Shown here: positions 2-13,415 of the stretch, one piece after another | Position numbering within the stretch: the stretch's first letter is position 1 | How the letters are laid out: each line of letters starts with the position of its first letter | Assembly: GCA_029824495.1 (NCBI GenBank) | Contig: JALGXY010000206.1 | Location: forward strand, 1-13,701 | DNA: 13,701 nt | Direction: 5' to 3' | From: Fimbriimonadia bacterium | GTDB taxonomy: Bacteria; Armatimonadota; Fimbriimonadia; Fimbriimonadales; Fimbriimonadaceae | The notes under the pieces: generated by a model | Database searches by the model: none | The model's input: the letters and a program-made list of their open reading frames with translations, nothing else | What the model was told of the DNA's origin: nothing | Made by a program: the position numbers and the translations under genes

Positions 2-1435
2 GGCTTCCAGGCGTTTACCGCCTTGACACCTGAAGACCGAAAGAACAGGCTTGGTTCAGCAGGAATCTGGGCTGTGTCGTTTGCTCTCTTCTTGACCTGG
101 CATCAGGCGACCGGAGACCAGGTTGAGATCCTGAAGGGCGTGGTTGCCATGAAGCCCCGCACGATCGCGGTGACCGTCCTGCTTGCCATCGCGGCAATCT
201 CGGCAATGGTGACGACTCAGCGTGCGGCACAAAAGCGAGGAGCCGCCCGCAAAGTGGTCGTCCAGGTCGCGCTGCTGGTCGGCTGTCTTATCTTCAGCAT
301 CCCCTTCGCCTGGATGCTCAGCACCAGCTTTAAAGAGAGCGAAGACATCTCCCTGGCAGATGGCATTCGCTGGATCCCTCAGGTCAATGTCACCCACGAC
401 TACATGGATGAGGAGAAGCCGCTCGTCTCGGCAGACTTGAGAGGCCGGGGTGTCAAAGCACAGATCATCGAGGTCCAGGCCGACGGTCAGGTTCTGCTGG
501 AGGTCGAGCGCCCTTACGGTCTTCGAGGAAGACGGTTTGAGTCAGCTCAGAGCGAGATCACTCCGATCCCTCGTGCAGCTCCTGTTGTCACTCTCGATTC
601 GGATGGCGAAACGGTTACCGGTTTTGTTGCCCGCGAACTCGACAACGGCTCACGCGAGGTCGAAATCATGTCGCCCGAAGCTCGAAAGGGCGAACGAGTC
701 GTAGCGGCAGCCGGGAAGGCAGAGCAGGTTCAGCGCACGGGATTCCGCTGGCAGAACTATCCAGAAGCGTTGGAGTTTCTTCCCGAGGAGACCAAGTACG
801 GACTGGTCTACCTTAAGAACACGGTCATTCTGGTTGTCATGTCGGTGATCGGCACAATTCTGAGCTGTTCACTCGTCGCCTACGGCTTCTCACGCTTGAA
901 ATTCCCAGGCAATGACCTGCTGTTCGGGCTGATGCTGGCGACAATGATGCTGCCGGCGGCTGTGACGATGCTGCCCACCTTCCTGATCTTCCGTCAGCTT
1001 GGCTGGATCGACACTCTGCTGCCGATCTGGGTGCCGACCTTCTTTGCTCAGGCCTTCAATGTGTTCCTGCTCCGGCAGTTCTTCCGCACGATCCCGATGG
1101 AGCTGGAAGACGCAGCCAAGATCGACGGCTGCAGCTATCTGAAAACCTACTGGACTGTGATGATGCCGCAGATCAAACCGGCGCTCGCCGCGATTTCGAT
1201 CTGGACATTCATGGGAGCCTGGAACAACTTTATGGGTCCGCTGATCTACGTCAGCTCACCCGAGAATATGCCGATTGCCTACGCTCTGCAGCTCTTCAGT
1301 GGAGAGCGCGGCGGCGAGTACGGGCTGATGATGGCGTTCGGCGCGATGGCGACTGTACCAGTTGTCCTGCTCTTCTTCGTGGCCCAGAAGTGGTTTATCG
1401 AAGGCGTGCAGCTCAGCGGCCTTGGTGGGCGCTAG
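2..1435 (+). CDS. MalG-type carbohydrate ABC transporter permease, 5' end uncertain
   Basis: Inner-membrane permease subunit of a binding-protein-dependent (CUT1-like) sugar importer. The frame is open to the left edge of the window. TTG at 23 and ATG at 149 (AAGGG about 11 bases upstream) are internal candidate starts, but coding character continues upstream of both. Numbering from the TTG, there are hydrophobic segments at about 46-64 and 76-99, then TSFK and GIRWIPQ (114-120), then an insert to about residue 240, then FRWQNYPEAL and the remaining membrane segments. The cytoplasmic EAA loop that contacts the ATPase is clear: EDAAKIDGCS at about 363-372, followed by MPQIKPAL. The end, GVQLSGLGGR, matches the usual family terminus. 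In ordinary MalG-like permeases WIP is followed within a few residues by NY, so the insert is extra. The ATPase, MalF-like partner and binding protein are not in the window. The family call is secure; the start is not. Confidence 0.9.
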   Translation, partial: GFQAFTALTPEDRKNRLGSAGIWAVSFALFLTWHQATGDQVEILKGVVAMKPRTIAVTVLLAIAAISAMVTTQRAAQKRGAARKVVVQVALLVGCLIFSIPFAWMLSTSFKESEDISLADGIRWIPQVNVTHDYMDEEKPLVSADLRGRGVKAQIIEVQADGQVLLEVERPYGLRGRRFESAQSEITPIPRAAPVVTLDSDGETVTGFVARELDNGSREVEIMSPEARKGERVVAAAGKAEQVQRTGFRWQNYPEALEFLPEETKYGLVYLKNTVILVVMSVIGTILSCSLVAYGFSRLKFPGNDLLFGLMLATMMLPAAVTMLPTFLIFRQLGWIDTLLPIWVPTFFAQAFNVFLLRQFFRTIPMELEDAAKIDGCSYLKTYWTVMMPQIKPALAAISIWTFMGAWNNFMGPLIYVSSPENMPIAYALQLFSGERGGEYGLMMAFGAMATVPVVLLFFVAQKWFIEGVQLSGLGGR

Positions 1436-5654: not shown

Positions 5655-6119
5655 TTAGATCTGGGCGTCGAATCGAACCCTCACCGGCTGCCCTTCGTGT
5701 TCAAACTTAAACTCGATGACGACGATCGGGCTCGTCCAGCGCCAGCGAGTGCTGACTACGATATCGGGCGTTGAAACGATGGATCCGTTCCATTCGATCT
5801 GATCGAGCCCGCCCTGTTTTCCTGCTTCGATCAGCAGCGAAGATCCAGAGATTGTGAACAGCCGACCTTCTGCTTGAAACAGATACTCGAAGACGATGTT
5901 CAGGCCGTCAAGCCGCGCATCTGCCTTGGTGACCGGCCCCACGCGGAGACAATTGATCGAGACTCGGTGGCGGCTGGCCGGGATCGGGCGCAACAGGCTG
6001 CGGATCAGTTCGATAGGGCGCTGGCCTTTGGCCCACCAGAGGAGCTTTGCGAGCAGGTTCATTGGCCGTATGGCGTCCCCAAGCTGAAAAGGCCACTGCT
6101 CTGGTTTTTCTGCAGACAT
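5655..6119 (-). CDS. Hypothetical protein, 154 residues, beta-rich
   Basis: Not recognised. It starts MSAEKPEQWPFQLGD and continues with a basic, partly amphipathic helical stretch (LLAKLLWWAKGQRPIELIRSL, roughly 22-42). The remaining two thirds alternates polar and hydrophobic residues in strand-like runs, for example VSINCLRVGPVT, LNIVFEYLFQAEG, PIVVIEFKFEHEG and PVRVRFDAQI. There is no signal peptide, no clear membrane span and no catalytic motif. The frame is open for 35 more codons upstream, but that part runs through a 24-bp palindrome and reads as non-coding (SSPQAWGEGRN), so ATG 6119 is chosen; only a weak GGAGA lies about 12 bases upstream. A lipid-binding or scaffold role is possible but unsupported. 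It stands alone, 342 bases after the polymerase gene on the same strand. Confidence 0.65.
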   Translation of the reverse strand: MSAEKPEQWPFQLGDAIRPMNLLAKLLWWAKGQRPIELIRSLLRPIPASRHRVSINCLRVGPVTKADARLDGLNIVFEYLFQAEGRLFTISGSSLLIEAGKQGGLDQIEWNGSIVSTPDIVVSTRWRWTSPIVVIEFKFEHEGQPVRVRFDAQI

Positions 6120-6136
6120 TGTCAAGTGGTTTCTCC

Positions 6137-6160
6137 CCTCTCCCCAAGCTTGGGGAGAGG
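6137..6160. repeat. REP-like perfect palindrome 1
   Basis: Perfect 24-bp inverted repeat with arm CCTCTCCCCAAG meeting its complement at a central HindIII-type AAGCTT. Adjacent bases add further C-rich and G-rich partial symmetry. Pyrimidine-rich arms of the CCTCTCCCC type are typical of extragenic palindromes in many bacterial genomes. Confidence 0.75.
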
Positions 6161-6282
6161 AGGGTCCGCCAATGAGGCCAACATTAAGTTGGGCTCGACG
6201 TGGATGGGTGAGGGGGCTAGACAAAAGACAGCTTTAGACCCTATCATCGCCGCTTGCGCCGATGATCCTCCCCCTCTTTTAT

Positions 6283-6306
6283 TCTCCCCCTAGGCCTAGG
6301 GGGAGA
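6283..6306. repeat. REP-like perfect palindrome 2
   Basis: Perfect 24-bp inverted repeat with arm TCTCCCCCTAGG. Its CTCCCC stretch resembles palindrome 1, but the centre is AGGCCT. It contains CCTAGG twice; the same hexamer sits at the centre of the 1445-1474 palindrome. Confidence 0.75.
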
Positions 6307-6370
6307 GGACTGAAACTGAAACTCTGTGGTGCCGGCGACCACGTCTGCTCATCTGCCCTCCTCCCCCTAA

Positions 6371-6404
6371 CCCCCTCCTCCCTTTTGACAAAAGGAGGAG
6401 GGGG
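6371..6404. repeat. REP-like hairpin 3 with short loop
   Basis: Left arm CCCCCTCCTCCCTTTT (6371-6386) and right arm AAAAGGAGGAGGGGG (6390-6404) pair along 15 bases, with one bulged C and a GAC loop. It is the hairpin nearest the polymerase stop (58 bases away) and could act as its transcript 3' end. No T-tract follows on the minus strand. Confidence 0.7.
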
Positions 6405-6461
6405 AATCTACGACTCCGCTTCCTCCCTCGCAGGGGTTGGAGGGTTAAAGGAACGACAAGA

Positions 6462-7739
6462 TCAATCTTCCTTCTTCTTGAACTTGTTGTCGCCTTTGCC
6501 TTCGCTGAACAGCTCAGTCTTCTGGAAGGCGATCTTCTCTTTTGCTGCGTCTTTGACGCCTTCCAGGCCCGCAACAAAGATCGAGTTTTTGCCGAACTTA
6601 TCGTTCATGTGGTCGATCGCCTCGTTGAGGTGAGTTCGAGTCGGCTTCTCATCAAAGAGGCTTGGCGTGACCTCGTCCGGTTTTGAGAGTGCTCCAAACG
6701 TGACCCCGACACCCTTCGGTTTCTCGAAGTCGCGCTTCTTCCAGTGCTCAAGGATCTGTTCGGTGATCTCAACCGTGTCGTTGGTCGGCTCAATCCTGAA
6801 TCCGGTCTTCCAGGACTTTTCAAACCCAGTCACGTGGAGGTTGATGAAGCCAGAAACCATCCCTCTCCGGCGCATTCTGGCGGCGGCCTTATGCGTCAGA
6901 CGCAGCAGAATATCCCGGCAGCCTTTGTCGTTTCTCAGGGAAGGAGGAAGCACATGGGAGTGGCCCAACGACTTGCCTTCATTCCGCTCGTCGGGCAGTT
7001 CGTAGCCTCGCAGCAGGTGCCACCAGCGCTCCCCAATGATGCTCCCGAATCCAGTGCGAAGCCTCTTGGCATCCGCCTCGATCAGATCATCTGAAGAGAA
7101 GATCCCGTTCGCTTTCAATCGGATCGCCAGCTTCTTGTTTATTCCTGTGAAGAATGTGAGGTCTTTTCCTCGAAAGGCATCTGGGAGGTCGCTTGCCTCG
7201 AGAACAACCAGGCCATCCGGTTTCTGAAGCTCTGTGCCGAGCTTTGCGATAAAAGCATTTGGCCCGATTCCTATTGAACAGTTCATCGACGGAGCGATGC
7301 TCTCCCACAGAACCTGTTTCATCCGCTTGGCGATCTTGATTGCGTCCTCTTTGTGGGTCTCGTTTCCGATCAGCCTGAACCGCATCTCGTCGATGCTGCA
7401 GACCTTCTCGATCGGCAGAACTCCTTCCAGCAGGTCAATGATCTCGTCGTGCATATGCACATAGAGGTCGTGGCGTGCATCGATCAAGATCAGGCCGGGA
7501 CACATGTCTTTGGCTTCACCGATCTGGGTGCCGGTCTTGACGCCGAACGCTTTGGCTTCGTAGCTGGCGGCGATCACAAACGAGGTGTCGGCCATAACCG
7601 GGCAGACAGCAACAGGTTTCCCTCTCAATTCGGGGCGGTCAGCCTGCTCTACAGAGGCAAAATAGGAATTCAGGTCAAGATAGAGGCTCCGAAGCGGTCG
7701 GTCCTCCTGCACCTGAAACGGCAGTGAAGCGTCTGCCAT
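6462..7739 (-). CDS. dinB: Y-family DNA polymerase (DinB-like translesion polymerase)
   Basis: Low-fidelity lesion-bypass polymerase of 425 residues, longer than E. coli Pol IV. The palm motif YLDLNSYFASVEQ (20-32) gives metal ligand D22 and steric-gate F27. SIDEM (115-119) supplies the other two catalytic acidic residues, D117 and E118. CSIGIGPNAFIAKLGTELQKPDG is the conserved finger/palm element that follows. A helix-hairpin-helix-type thumb (INKKLAIRLKANGI) and little-finger domain come next. The SIDEMRFRL version, with ADTSFVIAASYEAKAFGVKTGT, points to a DinB-like subgroup distinct from canonical Pol IV (SIDEAYLD). A possible clamp-binding stretch is TPSLFDE or the near-terminal QKTELF; neither is a clean match. 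The tail is lysine-rich. No LexA-type box is visible upstream, and the ATG has no clear Shine-Dalgarno. Confidence 0.92.
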   Translation of the reverse strand: MADASLPFQVQEDRPLRSLYLDLNSYFASVEQADRPELRGKPVAVCPVMADTSFVIAASYEAKAFGVKTGTQIGEAKDMCPGLILIDARHDLYVHMHDEIIDLLEGVLPIEKVCSIDEMRFRLIGNETHKEDAIKIAKRMKQVLWESIAPSMNCSIGIGPNAFIAKLGTELQKPDGLVVLEASDLPDAFRGKDLTFFTGINKKLAIRLKANGIFSSDDLIEADAKRLRTGFGSIIGERWWHLLRGYELPDERNEGKSLGHSHVLPPSLRNDKGCRDILLRLTHKAAARMRRRGMVSGFINLHVTGFEKSWKTGFRIEPTNDTVEITEQILEHWKKRDFEKPKGVGVTFGALSKPDEVTPSLFDEKPTRTHLNEAIDHMNDKFGKNSIFVAGLEGVKDAAKEKIAFQKTELFSEGKGDNKFKKKED

Positions 7740-7800: not shown

Positions 7801-9219
7801 TTGGATCAGCAGACACCGCCGCCAATTCAACCACCAGAGCAGGACAGCCCCCGAGTGCTTCCTCCTCGGCGGAACCCTGCTGGCTGGATTCTGCTCTCCT
7901 GCGTGTTTGGGCTGATGTTCTTCAGCAGCATCGGCAGCATTGCACAGGCGTATTTGGAGGAAGCTGACGGGGCGCGCATCGAACAGGATGCTGACGAAGA
8001 CTCTTCAGCATTCGAAGTCAATCTTCAGGTGAAGGTGGTGCTGGCTCTTCAGTCGATGGGCGAAGCTGGTGCTGGGCAGTTTGATAGCCTTGTCGATCAG
8101 CAGTTTTCCGATGCGGCAGAGTACGCGGCAGGCGAAAGTGGCGTAACGGCTCGAATTGCAGAGGCTGCGTTGATCTTTGAGACCGGCGAAGAGATTCCGG
8201 AAGAGCTGCTCGATGATCTGAACAACAGCGAAGAGGATGCGCTGGTCGATCTGGGGGTCATCTACAGTTCAGAGAGCCTGGAACCTGACGAAGTCGCAGG
8301 CCTCGTTGATGATCTTCCTGCCGGCATTGCCGGTGAGTTGGCTTCCGCCCACGCTTACGAGAAAGCAGGTGATTCTGGACCATCAGACAAGCTGGCACAA
8401 CCGGGGCAGTATCTGCTCTTTTTTGCCGGATCGGGTGCCATGGCGTTCTGCATCTTGGCTGGGATCCCGCTGGCGCTTCTCGGCATCTGGGGCCTGGTTT
8501 CAAAGAGGTGGAAGGGGCAGCCAAGCGCCTACTATCTTACGGATCTCATCGATGCAGACAACTACCTGACAAAGGCTGGCCTGATCATGGTCGCTTTCCT
8601 CGGATTCAGCGTTGTTCTAGAGGTGGTGGGGATGACTCTTTCGATCGATCCTCTGGCATCCAACGCGGCGTTTACAGTATTCGGCATTGGGGCAGTGTTG
8701 GCGGTGATGACATCCGGCAAGGGACCGAAGCTCAAAAAGGTCCTCTTGGGGGCAGATCATTCATCGGCGAAGCTGGTCGGCTGGGGCTTCTTAGGATTCC
8801 TAGGGAATCTGCCCTTAGCCCTGCTGATGGCCGTAGTTGGGCAGAAGATCTTTGCGTTTCTGCCGGAACCGAGCCACCCTCTTGCAGAAGAGGTGAGCCA
8901 AGGCGGGACAGGGGTTCTGCTGGGCGCGCTATTGGTCGGCTCGATCCTCGCCCCCTTCCTCGAAGAGATGGTGTTCCGCGGTGCGATTCTCAAGTCTCTA
9001 GAACGCGTGACCGGCCGGTTCTGGCTGTCGCTTGTGATCCAGGCCGCGGTCTTCGCAATGATCCATCCGCAGGGCCCGGCACTGTGGCTCTCGCTGGCCA
9101 CGATCGGTGCATCGGCCGGTGTTCTGGTGCGTCAGACCGGAGCGCTGCTGCCGGCGATCATTCTGCACGCCCTGCACAACGGGCTTCTGCTGTTTGTTGC
9201 CTCGACCCTGCTTAGCTGA
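7801..9219 (+). CDS. CPBP-family intramembrane metalloprotease with large acidic external domain
   Basis: Membrane protein of 472 residues. The C-terminal half carries the three CPBP (CAAX protease / Abi, Rce1-like) motifs: EEMVFRG at 388-394, FAMIH ending at H422, and HALHN at 456-460. The two Glu and the His/Asn residues form the glutamate-type active site inside the membrane. The N-terminus is proline-rich (TPPPIQPPEQDSP) and presumably cytoplasmic, followed by one membrane segment (28-50). A strongly acidic, helix-rich region of about 150 residues (53-200) precedes the remaining segments; it is mostly extracytoplasmic by prediction and not part of the standard family. The TTG start is set by AGGAG seven bases upstream. 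The gene overlaps the next by one base (TGATG) and heads the plus-strand operon. The substrate is unknown. Confidence 0.88.
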   Translation: MDQQTPPPIQPPEQDSPRVLPPRRNPAGWILLSCVFGLMFFSSIGSIAQAYLEEADGARIEQDADEDSSAFEVNLQVKVVLALQSMGEAGAGQFDSLVDQQFSDAAEYAAGESGVTARIAEAALIFETGEEIPEELLDDLNNSEEDALVDLGVIYSSESLEPDEVAGLVDDLPAGIAGELASAHAYEKAGDSGPSDKLAQPGQYLLFFAGSGAMAFCILAGIPLALLGIWGLVSKRWKGQPSAYYLTDLIDADNYLTKAGLIMVAFLGFSVVLEVVGMTLSIDPLASNAAFTVFGIGAVLAVMTSGKGPKLKKVLLGADHSSAKLVGWGFLGFLGNLPLALLMAVVGQKIFAFLPEPSHPLAEEVSQGGTGVLLGALLVGSILAPFLEEMVFRGAILKSLERVTGRFWLSLVIQAAVFAMIHPQGPALWLSLATIGASAGVLVRQTGALLPAIILHALHNGLLLFVASTLLS

Positions 9220-10325
9220 TGAGAATCTACGTCGACCACGCTGCCAGTACACCGATGTTCGCCGAGGCGAAGTCGGCGGTAGAGCAACAGCTCTCAGCGA
9301 CAGGCAACCCGAGCAGTCTGCATGCAGATGGGCGTCAGGTCAAAGACAGAATCGATCGAGCGAGGGAGCAGTGCAGCCAGGCTGCAGGCTGCCTGTTCGG
9401 CGAGTTCTACTTCACATCAGGCGGGACCGAATCGGTGGTTTTGGCTCTGGCCGGATCTGCACTGAATTCACCAAATGGTCGAAATCGCGTCCTGCTGGGT
9501 GCAGCTGATCACCACTCTGTTGTTGAGTCGCAAGCAATGCTGAACAAGCTTGGGATGCAGGTTCAATTTGTTCCAGCCAACCGTGACGGGTCCCTCGATC
9601 TGAACGCGCTCGAATCTATGATCGGAGATGACGTCCGGCTGGTGTCGGTGCTGGCGACCAACAACGAAACTGGCGCTGTAACCGATGTGAATCAGGCGGC
9701 AGAGATAGCTCACAAGTCAGGTGCACTTCTGCTCTGCGATGCAGTCCAGGCCTGGCCACAGGTCTTGCCGGAAGCAGATCTGATCGTTGTCTCTGCACAC
9801 AAGATGGGCGGCCCTGTTGGTGTGGGCGGCTTGATCACCCAGAACGGCACAAAGCTGGAGCCGCTTGCGGCGGGTGGCGGCCAGGAGCGTGAGCTGAGAG
9901 GCGGGACGGAAAACGCCATGGGAATTGTCGGGTTCGGTGCTGCTGCGGCCGAGGCAGCACTCAGAGCTGATGAGATCAGTTCAGTCAAACGGTCGGCCGC
10001 GGAGCATTTTCGAGATCGTCTCGACGGCGCCGCATTCACTCTCGACCAGGCCTCACCAGCGGGAATCGTCCATTTTCGGTATCCGGGTATCTCCGCAGAG
10101 TCGCTCCTGATCCGGCTGGACCATGAAGGGGTGAGCGCCAGCTCTGGCGCTGCCTGCAGCAGCGGCAGCATCGAACCGAGCCACGTGCTGATGGCAGCTG
10201 GATTGTCTGAAGAAGAAGCCGCCGAAGGGCTTCGGGTCTCCTTTGGCTGGTGTTCAACAGTCGGTGAGGCCGAGAAGGCTGCTCAGATCATCAGCTCTAG
10301 TGCCGCACAGATCAGGCAGGTTTAA
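9219..10325 (+). CDS. Cysteine desulfurase (NifS/IscS-like, PLP-dependent)
   Basis: Cytoplasmic enzyme, 368 residues, that takes sulfur from L-cysteine as a persulfide for Fe-S clusters or thiolated tRNA/cofactors. The N-terminus IYVDHAASTPM (3-13) is typical. FTSGGTES (65-72) and DHHSVVES (97-104) line the cofactor site. D174 and Q177 in CDAVQ contact PLP. K195 in VSAHKMGGPVG forms the Schiff base. The catalytic cysteine is C313 in SSGAACSSGS, with the long flexible-loop signature of the NifS/IscS class rather than the SufS class. GGGQERELRGGTEN (219-232) is the conserved substrate-binding stretch. ATG overlaps the protease stop, so the two are translationally coupled. No IscU scaffold, IscR or thiolase (MnmA) gene adjoins it, so the sulfur acceptor cannot be told here. 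Confidence 0.94.
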   Translation: MRIYVDHAASTPMFAEAKSAVEQQLSATGNPSSLHADGRQVKDRIDRAREQCSQAAGCLFGEFYFTSGGTESVVLALAGSALNSPNGRNRVLLGAADHHSVVESQAMLNKLGMQVQFVPANRDGSLDLNALESMIGDDVRLVSVLATNNETGAVTDVNQAAEIAHKSGALLLCDAVQAWPQVLPEADLIVVSAHKMGGPVGVGGLITQNGTKLEPLAAGGGQERELRGGTENAMGIVGFGAAAAEAALRADEISSVKRSAAEHFRDRLDGAAFTLDQASPAGIVHFRYPGISAESLLIRLDHEGVSASSGAACSSGSIEPSHVLMAAGLSEEEAAEGLRVSFGWCSTVGEAEKAAQIISSSAAQIRQV

Positions 10326-10356: not shown

Positions 10357-11784
10357 ATGAGCCTTCTTTCTGATCAGCTCACACCGCGAGAAATCGTCAA
10401 AGAGCTCGACAAGTTCATCATCGGTCAGGCTGCCGCCAAGAAAGCGGTCGCTATCGCACTCCGAAACCGATGGCGACGCCAGCAGCTTCCGCCATCCGAG
10501 CGAGCCGAAGTTCTGCCAAAGAACATCCTGATGATGGGGCCGACCGGCGTCGGAAAAACTGAGATTGCCCGGCGACTCGCCTCGTTGGCCCGAGCCCCCT
10601 TCGTAAAGGTTGAGGCCACGAAGTTCACTGAGGTCGGCTATGTTGGGCGTGACGTCGAATCGATGATCAGAGACTTGGCGGCCGCATCGGTCCGGCTGGT
10701 CGAGGCAGAACAGCTTGAGAAGATGCGGGTCGAGGCTGAATCGGCCGCTTATGATCGGCTGGCATCCCTTCTGGCAGACAAAGAGGAGGAACGGCTCGGG
10801 ATTGTACGTCGTGGTGGATTTGCCCAAGCGATTGAAGCTTTCGGCGATGTCCCCGGCCTGACCGACGAGCAGCGGATGACACTGATCGAGCAGGACGCTC
10901 AAGCCCAAGAGGCCGAAGAAGGAGAATCCCGCGAAGATCTGATCGCTCGAATGAAGCAGGAGCTGATGGATGGTCAGCACCGCAAGACGCTCGTCTCTGT
11001 CGCATTCGAAGAGCAGGGAAGCTCATTTATGCAGGTCTTTGGCCCGCAAGGCATGGAGGAGATGGGAATCGACTCAAACATGTTCAACAATCAGCTCGGC
11101 GGAGGTACGAAGTACATCTCCCGCGAGGCGGCTGTTGAGGACGCTTTTGAGATCCTGGTCGAATCGGAAGCAAAGCGCCGCATGGATGAGCCATCGATCC
11201 ACAAAGAGGCTGTGCATCGCGCCGAACAGACAGGCATCATTTTCCTGGACGAGATCGACAAGATCGCGATCAAGTCTGGCGGCGGCGGCGGACCTGAGGT
11301 CTCACGTGAAGGCGTCCAGAGAGACCTGCTTCCCGTCATCGAAGGGTCGACTGTTCCGAGCAAGTACGGGCCGATCAACACGGATCACATCCTGTTCATT
11401 GCAGCAGGCGCGTTTCACGTCAGCAATCCCGATGACCTGATTCCTGAACTGCAGGGCCGCCTGCCGATCCGTGTGACGCTCGACAGTCTGGGCGAGGACG
11501 ATTTCGCGAGAATCCTGACCGAGCCGAAGAGCTCGCTGATGAAGCAGTACCAGAAGCTGATGGCTGTCGACGGAGTTGAGCTGAGTTTCACGAAAGAGGC
11601 TCTCGATGAGGTCGCCCACGTGGCTCAGGAGCTCAACAACAGCACTGAGAATATCGGCGCAAGGCGACTGCACACAGTGATGGAGCTTCTGCTCGAGAAG
11701 CTGATGTTTGACGCGCCTGAAAACGCTGAGCCGCAGGTTGAAATTGGTGTCGAACACGTAAGACGTGAATTGAAGTCGTCATAG
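10357..11784 (+). CDS. hslU: HslU AAA+ unfoldase lacking the HslV-docking C-terminal tail
   Basis: ATP-dependent unfoldase subunit of the HslUV (ClpYQ) protease, 475 residues. TPREIVKELDKFIIGQ (9-24) starts the N domain. Walker A GPTGVGKT is at 61-68; the pore-loop motif GYVG is at 94-97; an acidic, helical I domain spans about 110-230; Walker B IIFLDE is at 294-299. GRLPIRV holds the arginine finger, and IGARRLHTVMELLLEKL is sensor 2. The protein ends VEHVRRELKSS. Family members normally continue about a dozen more residues to a tail such as EDLSRFIL, which inserts into HslV; that tail is absent and neither other frame restores it. The ATG at 10357 is chosen because MSLLSDQLTPREIV is the family N-terminus; a longer frame overlaps the desulfurase. 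hslV, usually adjacent, is not here. The gene lies 31 bases after the desulfurase, likely in the same operon. Confidence 0.96.
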   Translation: MSLLSDQLTPREIVKELDKFIIGQAAAKKAVAIALRNRWRRQQLPPSERAEVLPKNILMMGPTGVGKTEIARRLASLARAPFVKVEATKFTEVGYVGRDVESMIRDLAAASVRLVEAEQLEKMRVEAESAAYDRLASLLADKEEERLGIVRRGGFAQAIEAFGDVPGLTDEQRMTLIEQDAQAQEAEEGESREDLIARMKQELMDGQHRKTLVSVAFEEQGSSFMQVFGPQGMEEMGIDSNMFNNQLGGGTKYISREAAVEDAFEILVESEAKRRMDEPSIHKEAVHRAEQTGIIFLDEIDKIAIKSGGGGGPEVSREGVQRDLLPVIEGSTVPSKYGPINTDHILFIAAGAFHVSNPDDLIPELQGRLPIRVTLDSLGEDDFARILTEPKSSLMKQYQKLMAVDGVELSFTKEALDEVAHVAQELNNSTENIGARRLHTVMELLLEKLMFDAPENAEPQVEIGVEHVRRELKSS

Positions 11785-11823
11785 AAAAGGACTCCTGAAT
11801 TCCGGTAAGAGTCGAGGTTAGGA

Positions 11824-12459
11824 ATGAGCAGAGAATCTGGTCCTGAACCGAGAAAGGTCTCCTGGATCATCAAGATCTTGGTGCTCGCTCACCTGTTCGC
11901 CATCATCACCTGGTCGATGCCTTGGCCTCCTGCCCCATATCTTCGAGGAGATCTCAAACCGACATTCAAACACGTCGCCCAGAATCCATCGGACTGGCTG
12001 CTGACCGCAAACGCGAAAGTCAAGAATCAGGGTTACGTTGATCGATATCTCACATTCACCGGTCTCTGGCAGGCGTGGGATATGTTCGCTCCAAACCCGT
12101 CAAGCCTCGATCGCTGGGTCGACGCAGAAGTTCAGTATGCGGACGGCTCGACCGAGATCATCGCCTATCCGAGAATGTACGATATCCCGCTCCCCCGCAA
12201 GTACATCATGGAGCGGCACCGCAAGTATCTGGAGCGTGTTGTTGATCGGAGGTGGCAGGATCGATGGCCGGCCTTTGGACAGAGATTGGCTTACTGGGCG
12301 TACACCGACCCAAAAAATCCGCCGTTGTGGGTGACGGTCAGGGTTCATGAGCGCTGGATCGAGCCGATGGGAACGCCGACGCCAGACGGCTACAGCATGT
12401 ACATCGCTTACGGCTACGAGGTTCAGATCGACAAGCTTAAGGAGGATAAACAGTTTTGA
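11824..12459 (+). CDS. Membrane-anchored protein, partner of HTTM protein
   Basis: Protein of 211 residues with one hydrophobic segment (about 13-31, WIIKILVLAHLFAIITW) and a soluble C-terminal part that is probably extracytoplasmic. LWQAWDMFAPNP (81-92), followed by W-x-x-A-x-V-x-Y-A-D-G, matches the Trp-rich 'W-x-M-F-A-P' signature I associate with small proteins encoded beside, or fused to, HTTM / vitamin-K-carboxylase-like membrane proteins. No catalytic residues are recognisable. GAGG six bases before the ATG is a good binding site. The gene follows hslU by 39 bases and overlaps the HTTM gene by four, so the two products are probably made together and may form a complex. Its biochemical role is unknown. 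Confidence 0.75.
   Translation: MSRESGPEPRKVSWIIKILVLAHLFAIITWSMPWPPAPYLRGDLKPTFKHVAQNPSDWLLTANAKVKNQGYVDRYLTFTGLWQAWDMFAPNPSSLDRWVDAEVQYADGSTEIIAYPRMYDIPLPRKYIMERHRKYLERVVDRRWQDRWPAFGQRLAYWAYTDPKNPPLWVTVRVHERWIEPMGTPTPDGYSMYIAYGYEVQIDKLKEDKQF
12439..12445 (+). promoter_or_regulatory. Strong ribosome binding site for the HTTM gene TTG start
   Basis: AAGGAGG lies inside the last codons of the upstream gene, ten bases before TTG 12456. It supports the TTG, which overlaps the upstream stop as TTGA. The next in-frame ATG is 17 codons later, shortly before the first membrane segment. Confidence 0.75.
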
Positions 12460-13415
12460 GCATCCTCAAGCGCGCCAAAGAGAATTGGGTTCGGTTTGAA
12501 GAGTGGATGTTTGGCTGGGGGTCTGTCCACACGATGGCCCTCTACAGAATTCTGTTCGGCGGGCTGATGCTCACCAATTTCTTGATGCTCTCGGTCTCTT
12601 ACGAGGACTGGTTCACTGACAAGGGTTTCTTTCCAGCGGAGTTTCAGCACGGAGCAGGCAGCGAGGACTGGCCGAGGATAAACCTGCTGCTCTGGTTTCC
12701 GGGTGAAACGAGCACTCTCATCGTCTTTTGGGGCACCGTCGCAGCCGCGCTGTTCACCATGCTGGGACTCGGCACAAGAGTGGCGACAGCCGCTCTCTTC
12801 ATTGGAATGGTGACCCTGCACTGCCGAAACTGGGGAATTCTTCACAGTGGAGACAGCCTCGCTAGAGTCTGTGCTTTCAGCTTGATGCTCGCTCCTGCAG
12901 GGCGGGCTTACTCGCTCGATCGCTGGCTGCAGGTGAAGAGAGGTGACAACAGTCCACCTAAGCTGATGTCGATGTGGCCACAGCGAGTGCTGGCAATCCA
13001 GCTAGCCGTTGTCTATTTCATGACCTTTTGGCAGAAAATGCAGGGCAGCTACTGGCTCGACGGAACGGCGACCTACATCTCAGGGAGCCTGCGCGAGTTC
13101 GAAAAGTTTCCAGTTCCTGAATTCGTGATGCAGCAGCCGATGGTGGCGATCAATACGTACTACACACTTGCCATTGAGCTTGCGCTGGGTGTGCTGATCT
13201 TCTTTAAGCCGCTGCGCAAGTGGCTGTTGATCGGCGGCCTCCTGCTTCATGCTGGCATTGAGTATTCGATGAATATTCCCCTGTTCGCCTTCATAATTAC
13301 AGCGGTCTACGTCGTCTATTACGAGGGTGAGGAGACCAAGGCCTGGGTGGACCGAATGATCATGCGATTTACAAAACGTGCAAATCCAGAGGAGACCGGT
13401 GCGTCGGCGGCTTAA
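12456..13415 (+). CDS. HTTM-domain integral membrane protein (vitamin K carboxylase-like fold)
   Basis: Multi-pass membrane protein of 319 residues. HTTM (horizontally transferred transmembrane) proteins share the membrane part of vitamin K-dependent gamma-carboxylase. Typical signs are ALYRILFGGLML in segment 1 (28-39), NWGILHSGDSLAR (125-137) before a segment ending in APAGRAYSLDRW (146-157), and FWQKMQGSYWLDGTA (191-205). Roughly seven to eight hydrophobic segments can be counted. Only the membrane core is present, with no luminal carboxylase domain, so I do not claim carboxylation. The TTG start has a strong AAGGAGG. The gene is coupled to the upstream partner gene and overlaps the next start by 17 bases. 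Most bacterial HTTM proteins have no known function; lipid or small-molecule modification in the membrane is a common guess only. Confidence 0.85.
   Translation: MSILKRAKENWVRFEEWMFGWGSVHTMALYRILFGGLMLTNFLMLSVSYEDWFTDKGFFPAEFQHGAGSEDWPRINLLLWFPGETSTLIVFWGTVAAALFTMLGLGTRVATAALFIGMVTLHCRNWGILHSGDSLARVCAFSLMLAPAGRAYSLDRWLQVKRGDNSPPKLMSMWPQRVLAIQLAVVYFMTFWQKMQGSYWLDGTATYISGSLREFEKFPVPEFVMQQPMVAINTYYTLAIELALGVLIFFKPLRKWLLIGGLLLHAGIEYSMNIPLFAFIITAVYVVYYEGEETKAWVDRMIMRFTKRANPEETGASAA

Follow-up and report, generated by a model that had tools for sequence, protein, structure and literature searches.

The window, i.e., the entire 13,701-nucleotide stretch of Fimbriimonadia bacterium DNA analyzed here, carries on its forward strand an hslU gene (10357..11784) that encodes a 475-aa protein. 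Membership of this protein in the HslU family is clear from its TIGR00390 score (541.1 bits against a curated cut-off of 362.45), from a confidently predicted structure with the HslU fold (mean pLDDT 86.3) and from the PDB matches listed for it, all 50 of which are HslU or HslU-HslV/ClpY-ClpQ entries. The Walker A (GPTGVGKTE, 10537..10563), substrate-gripping GYVG pore loop (10636..10647), Walker B (IIFLDE, 11236..11253) and sensor 1 motifs are intact, and so are the putative arginine finger, which we take to be the R of LQGRLP (11458..11460), and GARR (11656..11667), presumably sensor 2. When the motif sequences of the window protein were used as queries, Walker A was found to be identical in 59/61 HslU sequences from genomes without a detected HslV and in 32/32 from genomes with HslV, and the GYVG loop was present in all 61 and all 32. 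The predicted fold looks intact, and so do the ATPase motifs, as the earlier note on this DNA had stated; the enzyme is presumably active. Upstream of hslU, on the same strand, are genes for a CPBP (Rce1-like) membrane protease (7801..9219) and a class V aminotransferase resembling cysteine desulfurases (9219..10325). The downstream region (11824-13415) encodes a 211-aa protein that matches no Pfam family and, after it, an HTTM-domain protein; the beginning of the window (23-1435) encodes an ABC-type permease with approximately 280 residues ahead of its Pfam transport domain (residues 286-458).

The feature of the HslU family that the window protein lacks is the C-terminal tail that activates HslV. 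After the last predicted helix (residues 465-472; with the truncated end ...KSS, 11749..11781, forward strand) the protein ends in ...VEHVRRELKSS at a TAG codon (11782-11784). The TIGR00390 match stops at position 430 of the 441-position profile, and in the alignment the C-terminus is 11 residues shorter than in relatives that possess HslV, close to the "about a dozen" missing residues estimated in the earlier note. Read in each of the three forward frames, the stop codon and the intergenic gap that occupy the expected place of the tail (11782..11823, forward strand) give nothing resembling it, and a frameshift hiding the tail was rejected; both alternative frames close soon, as had been claimed, although one of them stays open for 15 codons rather than "a few". 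In the sister genome (G001), hslU has an early stop of its own, 6 residues short of the usual end, which makes a single assembly error an improbable source of the stop in the window.

We found no hslV in the metagenome-assembled genome that contains the window (G000; 2.22 Mb, 476 contigs, 77% complete), where the top HslV hit scored 21.7 bits, the cut-off being 157.75, and none in G001 (92% complete). Because the window genome is 77% complete, the evidential weight on the absence of HslV comes from its relatives. Among 85 Fimbriimonadaceae genomes, HslU was detected in 78 (E 1e-60) and HslV scored above the cut-off in 16, all of which also carry HslU, which leaves 62 genomes with HslU and without HslV. 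Six of these (G008, G011, G044, G076, G093, and G096) are one-contig assemblies of 97-99% completeness. A divergent HslV hidden in these genomes is rejected by a PF00227 search (E 1e-5), which yielded no more than two matches per genome in the six (at least one in each) and two in the window genome; from their length and HslV score, all are read as 20S-type, and the two in the window genome as 20S beta- and alpha-type subunits.

In a phylum-wide sample of 206 genomes (at least 90% complete, plus the window genome), HslV was not found in 51/64 HslU-encoding Fimbriimonadaceae compared to 4/118 HslU-encoding genomes outside the family. Four other outsiders (G112, G128, G151, and G162) show the reverse combination, HslV without HslU, so that genes can be expected to go undetected at a rate of a few per cent. 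The HslU-only outsiders have canonical or near-canonical tails (DLSRYIL in G035, DLARYIL in G165, DLSRFIL in G102, and DLSRLML in G101), so most of them are probably assembly misses; the last two (L345 and L346, respectively) belong to a single genus of another family, with HslU present and no HslV found, and are perhaps a younger case. Because HslV is nearly universal in HslU-encoding genomes outside the family, we consider hslV to have been lost rather than gained. HslU itself was not found in 7/85 Fimbriimonadaceae genomes and accordingly does not appear to be indispensable in this family. The incompleteness and fragmentation of the window genome could suggest an artefact, with hslV missed by or absent from the assemblies, or with the stop codon being a sequencing error; the one-contig relatives, the low miss rate outside the family, the separate stop in the sister genome and the lack of a tail in the other frames make this extremely improbable.

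The HslU C-terminus was read in 92 genomes, 76 from Fimbriimonadaceae and 16 from other members of its order (in G042 and G062, HslU is split by contig ends and contributes no tail). All 31 of the 31 HslV-encoding genomes in the family and order have the tail D[LM][SC][RK][YF]IL, whereas the tail is non-canonical in 59 of the 61 genomes without a detected HslV; the two exceptions, G041 (75% complete) and G035, are most simply explained as assembly misses of hslV. On an RpoB tree (74 of 101 genomes; a quick search without bootstrap, with 15 of 71 inner branches weak), HslV presence and tail state agree in 69/69 genomes for which both traits are available, with eight changes in each trait (seven for HslV after removal of five genomes less than 85% complete). 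The strongly supported branches provide only four independent contrasts, all four concordant (sign test, p = 0.125), and the number of hslV losses is therefore approximate. A second, adjacent HslU copy in G091 was excluded from the tail counts on the tree and from the site comparison below. Among the best 80 HslU loci of named genomes, 74 tails are canonical or close to it, and the six odd ones (L170-L175) come from Armatimonadetes or Chthonomonas records. Among the 92 tails, outright truncation was seen only in the window genome and its sister, which share a genus. The comparison with relatives that the earlier note had proposed bore out the tail loss in this genus; elsewhere, the general phenomenon is a tail rewritten at unchanged length, and the truncation seen in the window is special to its genus.

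The rewriting follows a pattern. In orphan HslU, i.e., HslU from genomes without a detected HslV, the position of the aromatic anchor (Phe441 in E. coli, PMC4106860) accepts almost any residue, and the preceding D, L and S vary too. In 59/61 HslV-less genomes, the protein still ends in L, V, I or M, the exceptions being the window genome and its sister, with Ser in both, and 56 of the 59 non-canonical tails stop at the same alignment column, the other three belonging to these two genomes and to G099 (one residue short). Columns that are conserved in the presence of HslV but variable in its absence comprise seven of the nine tail columns compared to seven columns in the rest of HslU, and seven of the 14 sites shifted between the two groups fall in the tail (G041 and G035 were grouped with the HslV-encoding genomes in this comparison and in the dN/dS and residue counts below). 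A larger protein database, from which we took the 120 proteins nearest to the window HslU out of 7998 and which overlaps the genomes already counted, gives a similar picture: 33 ends are canonical or near-canonical and 87, including that of the window, are non-canonical; without the window, 86/119 are non-canonical, 85 of these 86 ending in L, I, V or M. The distance from sensor 2 to the end is exactly 53 residues in 111/120 of these proteins, 42 in the window protein and 44 in P0112, which is encoded on a 1.8-kb contig. Among positions outside the tail, mapped by alignment, the one that we take to be equivalent to E. coli Ile56 is looser too, being Ile in 31/33 sequences with HslV and in 38/59 without, the Phe310 equivalent is kept in 33/33 and 59/59, and the Pro315 equivalent in 33/33 and 57/59, respectively. 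In free HslU, Ile56 is described as being close to Phe441 (PMC4106860).

The orphan HslU bodies are under purifying selection. For pairs with a body pN below 0.17, to which the window genome and its sister were added, body dN/dS ranges from 0.008 to 0.22 in close HslV-less pairs with unsaturated silent sites, and is 0.10 for the window genome versus its sister; in many other HslV-less pairs the silent sites are saturated. The tail is more relaxed, with a median pN of 0.16 in 53 HslV-less pairs versus 0.05 in 10 pairs with HslV; amino acid changes in the tail are nevertheless rarer than silent ones in most pairs, and all tail changes in G020/G054/G056 are silent. These observations bear on the possibility that HslU, after the loss of hslV, is a disappearing relic that survives only by chance. 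Its relaxed tail, the seven family genomes in which HslU was not found, the further truncation in the window's genus and the open frame without a Walker A region in G075 are in line with such decay, but HslU is retained in 62 family genomes that lack a detected HslV, nearly all of the 60 sequences read from them have intact motifs, the dN/dS of HslU is far below 1, and both the length and the last residue of the tail are constrained, so that chance survival seems distinctly improbable. The G075 frame (L167) is either a broken gene or an assembly fault. Two Fimbriimonadaceae genomes, G047 and G009, encode an HslV-like protein below the cut-off and no HslU, and both copies are aberrant. In the G047 protein (L168, approximately 6001-6513; 1.3e-24), the STTV start of HslV is aligned to APTI, with Pro in place of the first Thr; the first Thr of HslV is catalytic and, by this alignment, seems to have been lost. 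The G009 frame (L054, 1501-1875, minus strand) is badly diverged, and the sister genomes G091 and G092 possess both hslU and hslV.

The gene order around hslU was compared for 77 loci, 60 of them from genomes without HslV and 17 from genomes with it. The earlier note had proposed that a cysteine desulfurase gene replaces hslV beside hslU; this did not hold, as hslU and hslV are unlinked in HslV-encoding relatives as well, some of which also have the desulfurase-like neighbor. In the 31 genomes of the family and order that encode HslV, the two genes lie 140 kb or more from each other or on separate contigs; separate draft contigs are not proof of distance, which is established by G019, G082, and G063 (one or two contigs) and by G029. 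G091 departs from this by carrying a second hslV-hslU pair, adjacent, on contig C89 (L092), with a different tail, EQQDLSKYIL; this pair is either foreign or a contaminant. Elsewhere in the phylum, hslU and hslV can adjoin, e.g., in G154 and G186. Where they are unlinked, either gene can be lost on its own. The desulfurase-like gene lies near hslU in 18 genomes without and five with HslV and was rejected as a substitute for hslV. A tblastn search with the desulfurase gave no match in the flanks (up to 1.5 kb) of 16 hslU loci from the order outside the family, and its link to hslU may therefore be family-specific. The CPBP protease, which had been mentioned as a loose candidate for a peptidase working with HslU, was rejected too: it recurs sparsely, in eight of the 77 neighborhoods (seven without and one with HslV), with no tie to HslV loss seen.

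In the 77 neighborhoods, the genes restricted to HslV-less genomes are not widespread, and the widespread ones are not restricted to such genomes. A new neighbor marking the loss of HslV was rejected on these grounds: the commonest cluster downstream of hslU (function unassigned) is found in four genomes with and 21 without HslV, and the clusters exclusive to HslV-less genomes (e.g., 4, 8, 11, 12, 15, and 16) are clade-limited. Cluster 4, to which the gene at 11824 belongs, occurs near hslU in 11 genomes without and none with HslV, and cluster 5, the HTTM-domain protein, in 11 genomes, one of them with HslV. The exclusive clusters would fit a scenario in which another, unrecognized peptidase or adaptor works with HslU and docks independently of the tail; retention under selection demands some function, and the constraint on the tail persists in most orphans. 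The clade-limited distribution may nevertheless reflect descent, and the CPBP and desulfurase neighbors are shared with HslV-encoding genomes, which leaves this scenario unlikely.

Alternatively, orphan HslU could have been re-targeted to a different compartmental protease, for which the 20S proteasome is the obvious candidate. PF00227 matches are present in 81/85 Fimbriimonadaceae genomes, and every genome that encodes HslV has one or more of them in addition to HslV; armatimonadete subunits have been placed among bacterial proteasomes (PMC5666114). An ARC/Mpa-like ATPase was detected in 80/85 of the family genomes, in all cases below the TIGR03689 curated cut-off. Of 20 ARC-like C-termini (L323-L342), 17 end in two residues from L/I/V/M, the penultimate residue of HslU is one of these four in 51/61 HslV-less genomes, similar to the ARC-like tails, and in G022 a proteasome-beta-like gene is located 2.6 kb from hslU. 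However, 20S-type and ARC-like genes occur in HslV-encoding genomes too, and in G071, G072, and G073, from the same genus as G022, hslU and the proteasome-beta-like gene are on separate contigs. The likeness of the tails is weak evidence because canonical HslU also ends in aliphatic residues (-IL). The C-terminal motif of ATPases that activate the 20S proteasome is HbYX; its penultimate Tyr is found in 0/20 ARC-like C-termini and in 1/61 orphan HslU, the window protein ends in ...LKSS instead, and gain of HbYX by orphan HslU was accordingly rejected. The window HslU has no docking tail at all, and an ARC-like gene was not found in its 77% complete genome. Furthermore, the interfaces of HslU and proteasomal unfoldases are reported to differ (PMC5666114). 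There is slight support for the 20S proteasome as a partner, and re-targeting appears unlikely; we would likewise give little credence to a tail converted from a key to the HslV pocket into one that fits a different ring, with the 20S proteasome as the most tempting partner, which would produce a hybrid HslU-20S machine or a new HslU-client machine.

Persistence of HslU as an HslV-independent unfoldase or chaperone after the loss of hslV, with the tail changes set out below, appears to be the probable scenario as a whole. Under this scenario, hslV, already unlinked from hslU in Fimbriimonadaceae, would have been lost several times, and HslU would have been retained for a second, HslV-independent job, most likely that of a stand-alone ATP-driven unfoldase or remodeling chaperone; the HslU ring of the window would no longer feed HslV. 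After each loss, the residues that fit the HslV pocket (the aromatic anchor and D-L-S) would be free to vary, and the length and aliphatic last residue would be kept, probably for packing into the inter-subunit cleft of HslU; the window's genus would have given up these as well. That orphan tails lost what is specific to HslV but retained what serves self-packing is suggested by the reports that activation of Leishmania major HslV by an HslU peptide requires five of its last six residues (PMC6429459) and that the tail of free HslU is buried in the inter-subunit cleft (PMC4106860, PMC6429459). A chaperone-like activity of HslU without HslV has been reported as well (PMC5666114). The stand-alone role itself is inferred from the conservation of HslU in the absence of HslV. 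The observation from which this work started, a tail-less HslU with no hslV beside it, is confirmed. Its interpretation is partly supported: an HslV-independent function is the best reading of the loss of the tail and the absence of hslV, and neither the CPBP protease as a partner nor the replacement of hslV by the desulfurase gene was supported.

The absence of HslV with retention of HslU is wider than could be seen from the window, being family-wide, and it points to a separate task for HslU in Fimbriimonadaceae. HslU is usually viewed as one half of HslUV; here, a natural experiment is available in which HslV has seemingly vanished several times and HslU is conserved nonetheless, in part in one-contig genomes. 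An HslV-independent function of HslU thereby becomes a directly testable question, and the orphan tails provide natural variants that separate docking to HslV from the role of the tail within the ring. Annotation as "HslUV protease ATPase", which some of the nearest proteins have received, need not imply membership in a protease.

No report of orphan HslU was found in the open-access literature at the level of titles and the beginnings of abstracts. Three known systems are the closest. By profile, motifs and fold, the window protein is of the same family as HslU (ClpY) of HslUV; it differs in that no HslV was found and in that the tail is missing, or, in the relatives, rewritten. Yeast is not known to have ClpP. 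Mitochondrial ClpX, according to PMC7077987, activates ALA synthase via partial unfolding, i.e., a protease-type AAA+ unfoldase remodels a client without degrading it; the likeness is one of working mode only, ClpX being another AAA+ protein. A link between HslU and the desulfurase resembling that of ClpX and ALA synthase is only a thought suggested by this analogy. Trypanosomatid HslU1 is comparable in that the Trypanosoma brucei protein reportedly fails to activate HslV from the same species (PMC4106860), although for Leishmania both HslUs have been argued to partner HslV (PMC6429459). In contrast to the situation in Fimbriimonadaceae, HslV and a second HslU coexist in trypanosomatids, and HslU1 is described as retaining a conserved Phe (PMC4106860).
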